DNA of 38,534 bases from an uncultured Fidelibacterota bacterium. GTDB lineage: Bacteria; Fidelibacterota; Marinisomatia; Marinisomatales; Marinisomataceae. The DNA is taken from contig CACGRA010000005.1 in NCBI GenBank assembly GCA_902575395.1, positions 1-38,534 on the forward strand, in the 5' to 3' direction. Position numbers and translations under genes: made by a program. Every line of letters starts with the position of its first letter. Within the stretch, counting starts at the first letter, position 1. The notes under the pieces are model-generated. The model made no database searches. It was given only the letters and a program-made list of their open reading frames with translations, and was not told the DNA's origin. Shown one piece after another: positions 24,103 through 25,520 of this stretch.

Positions 24103-24645
24103 ATGTTTGATACAATATTTTTAGATCGAGATGGTACAATTAACGGTGATCCACTAGGATATATTAACAGCTTGTCTGATTATCATTTTTACGATTATAC
24201 ATTTGAAGCACTAGATATATTAAAAAAATATTCTAACAATCTTGTTATTGTTACCAATCAATCTGGATTGGCAGAAGGTAAACTTGATATTAATAATCTA
24301 AATGAAATACATCATTTTGTACGTGAAGAATTTGAAAAAAGAGACTTGAATCTAAGAGCAATTTACTTTTCTCAAGATTATCATGAAGATTTTAATTCAA
24401 TGCGAAAACCAGGGATTGGGATGTTTTTAAAAGCAAAAGAAGAACTAGATATTGATTTAAAAAATAGTTTGATGATTGGAGACTCAATAGTTGATATACA
24501 GGCTGCAGAAAGAGCAGAAATGAAGTCTATTTTTCTTCTTTCAGGCCAAGGAAAATCATATTTAGAAGATGTTAAAAGAGATTATAAACCTAATTTAATT
24601 GCAAGAGATTTATTACATGCAGCAAAGGAGATATCATCAATATAG
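24103..24645 (+). CDS. HAD-superfamily phosphatase resembling GmhB
   Basis: A 180-residue HAD hydrolase close to D,D-heptose 1,7-bisphosphate phosphatase, which acts in lipopolysaccharide core heptose synthesis. Motif I is DRDGTIN with Asp8 and Asp10, then VTNQSGLAEGK, MRKPGIGMFLKAK with the conserved Lys, and GDSIVDIQAAERA. GmhB and the HisB N-terminal domain usually hold a zinc loop of Cys and His residues just before the RKP motif. Here that stretch reads IYFSQDYHEDFNSMRKP with no Cys, so the metal site is missing. The heptose substrate is therefore an inference. It overlaps the start of ddl. Confidence 0.75.
   Translation: MFDTIFLDRDGTINGDPLGYINSLSDYHFYDYTFEALDILKKYSNNLVIVTNQSGLAEGKLDINNLNEIHHFVREEFEKRDLNLRAIYFSQDYHEDFNSMRKPGIGMFLKAKEELDIDLKNSLMIGDSIVDIQAAERAEMKSIFLLSGQGKSYLEDVKRDYKPNLIARDLLHAAKEISSI
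24624..24630 (+). promoter_or_regulatory. Shine-Dalgarno for ddl
   Basis: AAAGGAG ends five bases before the ATC at 24636. It lies inside the 3' end of the upstream phosphatase gene. It is well placed for 24636 and too far from the first canonical start codon in the frame, a GTG at 24681. Confidence 0.65.
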
Positions 24646-25520
24646 GTGTCATATATGGTGGAGATTCTTCTGAGAGAGAAGTGTCTATTAATTCCGGAAA
24701 AGCAATCATCAATGCTTGTGAAAAATTAGGATACAATGTTCAGGGTTTTGATGGTTTTGACGAGTCAATTCTTAATCAGAAATTTCATTTTATCTTTTTA
24801 GCGCTTCATGGAACATTTGGAGAGGATGGATCCATACAAAAAATTTTAGAACAAAATAATATAAAATACAATGGATCTAATTCTATATCTTCAGAACATT
24901 GTTTTGATAAAAACTTCACAAAAATCCTTGCAAAGAAAAATAATATTTTAACACCAGAATGGCTATTAGTTGATAACAAAGAAGATCCAAATATATCAAA
25001 CATAAGTTTTAAACCTATAGTTAAACCTAATAAAGAAGGCAGTACCATAGGATTTAGCTTGGTTGAGGATATCAATAGCCTTGACATTGCAATAGATGAA
25101 TCTCTGAAGCATGGAGAAAATTCGTTAATAGAAGAATATATTTCAGGCAGAGAAATTACTGTTTCTGTATTAGGAAATGAATCTTTGCCAATAATTGAAA
25201 TCAGGCCTCATTCTGATGTTTATGATTACAAATCTAAATACACTAAAGGAGAGTCTGATTATATATGTCCAGCAAACCTTGATGATTCTTTATCAAAAGA
25301 TATCCAAGATACTGCATTGAGAATTCACAATTTGCTAGACTGTAAAGTATACTCCAGAGTTGATTTTAGACTAGATAAAGAGAATAGGTTTTGGCTATTA
25401 GAAATCAATACTTTACCAGGAATGACAGAAACAAGCCTATTTCCTATGGCAGCAAAAGTTATTGGTTTAAATTTTGAAGATTTGATTGATAAGATTATTA
25501 AATTATCTTTAGAAAAATGA
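24636..25520 (+). CDS. ddl: D-alanine--D-alanine ligase, apparent ATC start
   Basis: ATP-grasp enzyme that makes the D-Ala-D-Ala dipeptide of peptidoglycan. Family marks: NIGVIYGGDSSEREVSI at the very N-terminus, FLALHGTFGEDGSIQ, VKPNKEGSTIGF and YDYKSKYTKGESDYICPA. Metal-binding residues are in SRVDFRL and LEINTLPGMTE. The first canonical start, GTG at 24681, would remove the conserved GGDSSERE nucleotide-binding stretch. The frame is open from 24594 and contains no ATG, GTG or TTG before 24681. An ATC at 24636, 5 bp after AAAGGAG, gives a full-length 294-residue protein, so I place the start there. Function is certain; the start is inferred. Confidence 0.88.
   Translation: MNIGVIYGGDSSEREVSINSGKAIINACEKLGYNVQGFDGFDESILNQKFHFIFLALHGTFGEDGSIQKILEQNNIKYNGSNSISSEHCFDKNFTKILAKKNNILTPEWLLVDNKEDPNISNISFKPIVKPNKEGSTIGFSLVEDINSLDIAIDESLKHGENSLIEEYISGREITVSVLGNESLPIIEIRPHSDVYDYKSKYTKGESDYICPANLDDSLSKDIQDTALRIHNLLDCKVYSRVDFRLDKENRFWLLEINTLPGMTETSLFPMAAKVIGLNFEDLIDKIIKLSLEK

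Follow-up and report, generated by a model that had tools for sequence, protein, structure and literature searches.

Where does translation of the gene for D-alanine–D-alanine ligase (ddl), an essential enzyme of the cell wall, begin, when its reading frame offers no canonical start codon ahead of the conserved N-terminus? The question is raised by a window of 38,534 nucleotides, a contig (C5) of a Marinimicrobia MAG (G000; 752,782 bases, 72.7% complete) from a genus of oceanic bacteria with small genomes. An earlier note on this DNA had proposed that ddl starts with ATC, behind a good Shine–Dalgarno (SD) sequence. Its description of the site was borne out: the ddl frame is open from 24594, no in-frame ATG, GTG or TTG occurs until the GTG at 24681, and the SD motif ends 5 nt before an ATC codon (Table 1). 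A second ATC lies directly 5′ of the proposed start, at 24633–24635, and is not conserved in relatives.

The protein read from 24636, with the predicted N-terminus (M)NIGVIYGGDSSER, scores above the cut-offs of two Ddl profiles, PRK01372 (339.4 bits, cut-off 243) and TIGR01205 (286.9 bits, cut-off 245.65), and Ddl relatives in the PDB, e.g. 1iov, align with it from residue 3. The closest named relatives by Ddl identity are Candidatus Marinimicrobia MAGs (91, 78 and 78%). One Ddl match, and with it one copy of ddl, was found in G000. The start of ddl is overlapped by 10 nt of the 3′ end of the upstream gmhB-like gene, which scores 139 bits with PRK08942, below the cut-off of 178, and above the cut-off of TIGR01656 (histidinol-ppas domain). 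The gene downstream of ddl, at 25517, appears from a reading of its translation to encode cysteinyl-tRNA synthetase.

Table 1. Features at the start of ddl, in window coordinates
Feature	Position	Strand	Basis or remark
gmhB-like HAD phosphatase (heptose-bisphosphate phosphatase family), upstream gene	24103..24645	+	Profile matches
TAA, final in-frame stop upstream of ddl	24591..24593	+	Sequence
Shine–Dalgarno AAAGGAG	24624..24630	+	Pairs with the 16S tail at −8.9 kcal/mol, a strength reached by 3.1% of the 577 canonical-start genes of G000
ATC start codon of ddl (proposed)	24636..24638	+	ATC/ATT in 22/24 genus genomes
ddl, D-alanine–D-alanine ligase, 294 aa	24636..25520	+	Ddl profile and Pfam matches, PDB alignment
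TAG stop of gmhB	24643..24645	+	6 nt downstream of where an ATGA overlap would put the stop
First canonical codon (GTG) of the ddl frame, not accepted as the start	24681..24683	+	Frame and profile loss

The note had also argued that a start at the GTG would truncate the protein, and this holds: the N-terminal strand and the GGDSSERE loop are lost. The score of the Ddl profile falls from 339.4 to 309.7 bits (a loss of 29.7) and that of the N-terminal Pfam domain from 71.1 to 42.1 bits (a loss of 29), the Glu of SSERE being removed. A complete N-terminal domain, with its GG-x-S-x-E motif, requires a start at 24636 or close to it.

The start codon across the genus and the order

Alignment with relatives, the check that the note had suggested, was carried out with 24 genomes of the genus. 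The codon aligned with 24636 is ATC in 6, ATT in 16 and ATG in 2 of them, i.e. ATC or ATT in 22 of 24; the DNA of 23 loci was read, and the 24th, in G013, is known from a pattern match alone. Besides the window genome, the ATC/ATT group includes the MAGs UBA2980, Ct9H_300m.P24 and ERR598971_bin.15. In G013 the gene (G013:C2:67724-68621) is split over two separate frames, probably owing to an assembly frameshift. The two genomes with ATG, G009 and G022, have no strong SD and carry an ATGA overlap with the upstream gene. The ATC-start reading is thus supported more strongly than had been proposed, since ATC/ATT proves to be a trait of the whole genus. What the note had held to be the main alternative, a one-base change from ATG to ATC through an assembly, sequencing or single-strain error, has in its favour that the window comes from a MAG of only 72.7% completeness; it is refuted by the presence of ATC or ATT at the same codon in 21 further genomes, and we give it practically no chance.

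In all 23 loci read (21 ATH and 2 ATG) an in-frame stop lies 1–17 codons upstream with no canonical start in between; in one locus (L003) the stop, TGA, is immediately 5′ of the ATT start. The codon preceding the start is highly variable among relatives (ATC, AAC, TGA, TCA, AGT, ATT, AAG, AAA, AAT, CTT), and the start codon itself is ATC, ATT or ATG only. Since ATC/ATT is aligned in 22 of 24 genomes while its neighbour varies so freely, its presence at the start is not a matter of chance. The genomes are related, and the count therefore stands for long conservation, the number of independent events being much below 22.

Standard gene callers must choose the first canonical codon, which in the window is the GTG, and translation from that codon has this much to recommend it. 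However, the distance to the first canonical codon ranges from +14 to +141 codons among the 21 ATH loci read, and starting at that codon would deprive most of them of large parts of the N-terminal domain, with no other copy of the gene found in G000. The residues removed are conserved and match those of solved Ddl enzymes. A start at the first canonical codon is accordingly extremely improbable.

Outside the genus, the start codon aligns with the ATG or GTG of ddl in six of the seven outgroup loci read; in the seventh (L024) an ATG start lies two codons before the aligned codon. A pattern search of the rest of the order (106 genomes) matched an ATG/GTG/TTG start in 50 and an ATH start in 2, both of the latter also offering an in-frame ATG, one or two codons upstream; the 54 genomes that matched neither pattern are uninformative. 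The ddl gene of the genus shows the marks of a conserved AUH start: ATH where homologues have ATG/GTG, no canonical start available, and conservation across species. The same alignment bears on the neighbouring near-cognate codons, ATC at 24633 and ATA at 24642 or 24651, which are in frame and close to the SD and might serve as the start in place of 24636. The first of them is unconserved, the other two are more distant from the SD, and 24636 is singled out by its alignment with the ATG/GTG of the outgroup and with the ATG of G009 and G022; we consider their use improbable.

The overlap with gmhB and the Shine–Dalgarno sequence

In all seven outgroup loci read, and in both genus genomes with ATG, the stop codon of the upstream gene overlaps the start of ddl by 4 nt in the form ATGA or GTGA. 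This type of stop is missing from the 21 ATH loci, in which the end of the upstream gene is shifted 6 or 12 nt downstream; gmhB extends 10–16 nt beyond the A of the ATH codon in every one of them and ddl lies in the −1 frame of gmhB. Such an arrangement would suit a programmed −1 frameshift, by which Ddl would be made as a GmhB–Ddl fusion with no start of its own, and in two loci (L016 and L017) a possible slippery heptamer, TTTAAAA, stands just 5′ of the ATT. In the other 19 of 21, however, no X_XXY_YYZ site occurs within the possible window, which in L003 measures only 10 nt; a slippery heptamer is thus not a conserved feature of the overlap in the ATH loci. Frameshifting would also leave the SD, the restriction to ATH and the ATG relatives unexplained, and we judge it very improbable overall, less firmly so for L016 and L017.

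The proposed start at the ATH codon is accompanied by a distinctive SD. The 16S tail of G000 is CCTCCTTT, and the duplex energy is between −5.3 and −10.2 kcal/mol in all 21 ATH loci; where the start is ATG the two values are −3.1 and −2.7, and the medians for canonical-start genes are −2.0 in G000 (n = 577), −2.25 in G019 (n = 754) and −2.20 in G023 (n = 533). Two loci (L021 and L023) have an SD of different sequence, TTGGAGGT, which at −10.2 is at least as strong. The SD is of medium strength in the large ATT clade, at −5.6 in most loci and −5.3 in G019, where 25% of the canonical genes of that genome are as strong. Measured from the end of the motif, the spacing to the start codon is 5–6 nt in 20 ATH loci and, by the motif found there, 8 nt in the remaining one, L016. 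We read this as compensation, a weak codon going with a strong SD and a strong codon with a weak one, a contrast that belongs to the genus, as outgroup ddl SDs vary from −1.0 to −7.6. Conservation of the SD may in part be due to the overlapping codons of GmhB.

In a tree of 30 Ddl rows, G009 and G022 make up a single clade nested in the genus, with a clade of 11 ATT rows as its sister; these 13 rows together have a support of 100/97, and the tree does not resolve the base of the genus. Two changes would suffice on this tree, which allows both one gain followed by one reversion and two gains. The occurrence of ATG in two genomes of the genus indicates that the weak start is not indispensable. 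The loci make up an evolutionary series, consisting of the ATGA/GTGA overlap of the outgroup, ATH with a strong SD in most of the genus, and ATGA with a weak SD in two genomes, and this series bears on how AUH starts arise or revert.

Probable initiation at AUC/AUU and its known counterparts

Across the loci compared, ATC/ATT is conserved, has no canonical alternative, follows a strong SD and occupies a site unlike the ATGA/GTGA overlap of the outgroup. From these sequence comparisons we put the probability that AUC/AUU is the genuine start of ddl at about 0.88, and we infer that it is used in vivo. In the window, ddl would be translated from the AUC at 24636, the 30S subunit being placed on it by pairing of AAAGGAG with the 16S tail CCUCCUUU. 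An unusual initiator tRNA was considered and rejected: three tRNAs of G000 have the anticodon CAT, and one of these has ordinary initiator features, a C1:A72 mismatch and a GGG/CCC anticodon stem. Since the initiator is ordinary, fMet-tRNA (anticodon CAU) is expected to read AUC/AUU with a third-position mismatch, and Ddl would begin with fMet. The RNA around the ddl start of the window folds no better than shuffled sequences (z 1.16).

In E. coli, IF3 discriminates against mismatched start codons and thereby controls infC. By disfavouring such codons IF3 would make the ddl start a weak one, with an output of perhaps a tenth of that of AUG, as in comparable Staphylococcus cases; the start would respond to the level of IF3, and the strong SD would partly offset the weakness of the codon. 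The AUH start probably limits Ddl, and we find it rather likely that Ddl expression is both weak and IF3-sensitive. The discrimination by IF3 and the control of infC are also stated in PMC13009471, according to which, in poor medium, conserved AUU/AUA starts with extended SDs in S. aureus reach about 10% of the output of AUG. In the light of these measurements from other bacteria, a lowered or tuned expression of Ddl, as the earlier note had imagined it, is plausible.

Several known systems resemble ddl in part. The infC gene (AUU in E. coli, AUA in S. aureus, ATT in Listeria) likewise has an ATH start behind a strong SD, but it encodes IF3 itself and its AUU serves autoregulation, whereas ddl encodes a metabolic enzyme. 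The E. coli pcnB gene, according to Binns and Masters (2002), reportedly starts with AUU, an inefficient start codon that limits expression; it shares the AUH start with ddl and differs in being another gene, the ddl start lying within the gmhB overlap. In S. aureus, ccpN (AUA) and cvfC1 (AUU) also combine a conserved non-canonical start with a strong SD; unlike the start of ddl, which is deduced from the sequence of an enzyme gene, theirs, with a measured output of about 10% of that of AUG, were mapped by Ribo-Ret and belong to a regulator and a small protein (PMC13009471). The infC (ATT) and rnhC (ATC) starts of Listeria are fixed and experimentally confirmed, rnhC being, like ddl, a conserved gene with a fixed ATC start, and they were studied within one species, whereas the ddl start is followed across the species of a genus (PMC13068326). 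Literature searches combining ddl with start codon, or Marinimicrobia with start codon, found nothing on topic, as judged from the lists of results. Conserved AUH starts with strong SDs are thus known in E. coli, Staphylococcus and Listeria, and those of ddl and uvrC in this phylum look new. With them, the few genes for which such starts are known would come to include one for an enzyme of peptidoglycan synthesis, and uvrC, from a phylum with hardly any cultured members.

The same start type in infC, uvrC and other genes

The same start type seems to recur in the genus at infC and uvrC and at few other genes, the count for other genes being a lower bound. A match to infC was found in 17 of the 24 genomes, and the 16 loci read (L034–L049) start with ATT in 15 cases and ATC in one (L034). 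The seventeenth, in G020, a genome that is 95% complete (L050, G020:C2:29207-29665), was left out; it has six internal stops. No infC match is present in the remaining 7 of 24 genomes.

For uvrC, with a search pattern that also permitted ATG, GTG and TTG, the start is ATH in all 21 matched genomes of the genus (8 ATA, 2 ATC and 11 ATT; 3 of 24 unmatched). Of 106 outgroup genomes searched, the three that matched all have ATG, equally far from the conserved motif. The G000 gene (L070, G000:C9:9374, minus strand) is identified by TIGR00194 (500 bits, cut-off 285.45). Its first canonical codon lies 92 codons downstream, past the GIY-YIG domain at 14–90. G009 and G022, which have ATG in ddl, still have ATC in uvrC. 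In G016 the N-terminus of uvrC occurs on two contigs, G016:C1:3259 and G016:C8:1210, in slightly different versions.

A genome-wide scan compared stop-to-stop frames of G000, G019 and G023 (725, 963 and 629 kb, incomplete) and yielded 635, 417 and 593 clean reciprocal best pairs. The first candidate list consisted mostly of antisense shadows and chance upstream similarity and was later cleaned. In 92 pairs some alignment extended 8 codons or more beyond any canonical start in the 5′ direction; most of these pairs proved on inspection to be short stretches beside ATG, overlaps or shadows. The long convincing cases are infC, uvrC, ddl, prfB, which we take to be the known RF2 frameshift, and malate synthase. 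An ATT start for the last (G019 C2, G023 C4) could not be confirmed, as the pattern matched 2 of 24 genomes, one of them with TTA, and G019 itself was unmatched. A codon-position filter left six pairs, one of uvrC, two of infC and three short stretches running into ATG. The filter dropped all three ddl pairs, and the evidence for ddl is instead the comparison of aligned loci. The scan is blind to genes with an AUH start and an ATG within 8 codons, hence the lower bound.

These genes bear on the one rival still alive, which concerns the meaning of the ddl start and not its existence. The start may be real and have no regulatory meaning, ATG having drifted to ATH in a streamlined lineage where a good SD made this tolerable, or ATH having been kept because it removes the TGA of gmhB and so lengthens or decouples that gene. 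The missing ATGA-type stop and the later end of gmhB fit this explanation, as does the strong SD of every ATH locus. Against it, a single mutation would yield ATG, and yet ATH has been kept while Ddl diverged to identities as low as 52%; moreover, a cause specific to gmhB is at odds with the same start type in uvrC and infC. We regard a start devoid of regulatory meaning as quite possible. A bolder reading gives the start a regulatory role: infC, ddl and uvrC would be a small regulon defined by the identity of the start codon, in which IF3 represses infC and, via AUU, AUC and AUA starts, the genes of an enzyme for cell-wall precursors and of a nuclease for DNA repair. If this were true, free IF3, and with it the growth state, would tune wall synthesis and excision repair with no transcription factor involved; such a regulon is speculative and, in our estimation, unlikely.

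For annotation the consequences are more immediate. Gene callers limited to ATG, GTG and TTG would cut short the Ddl of every one of the 21 ATH loci read, and the UvrC of G000 would lose its GIY-YIG domain; given such gene calling, the Ddl and UvrC proteins of this genus in databases are likely to be shortened.
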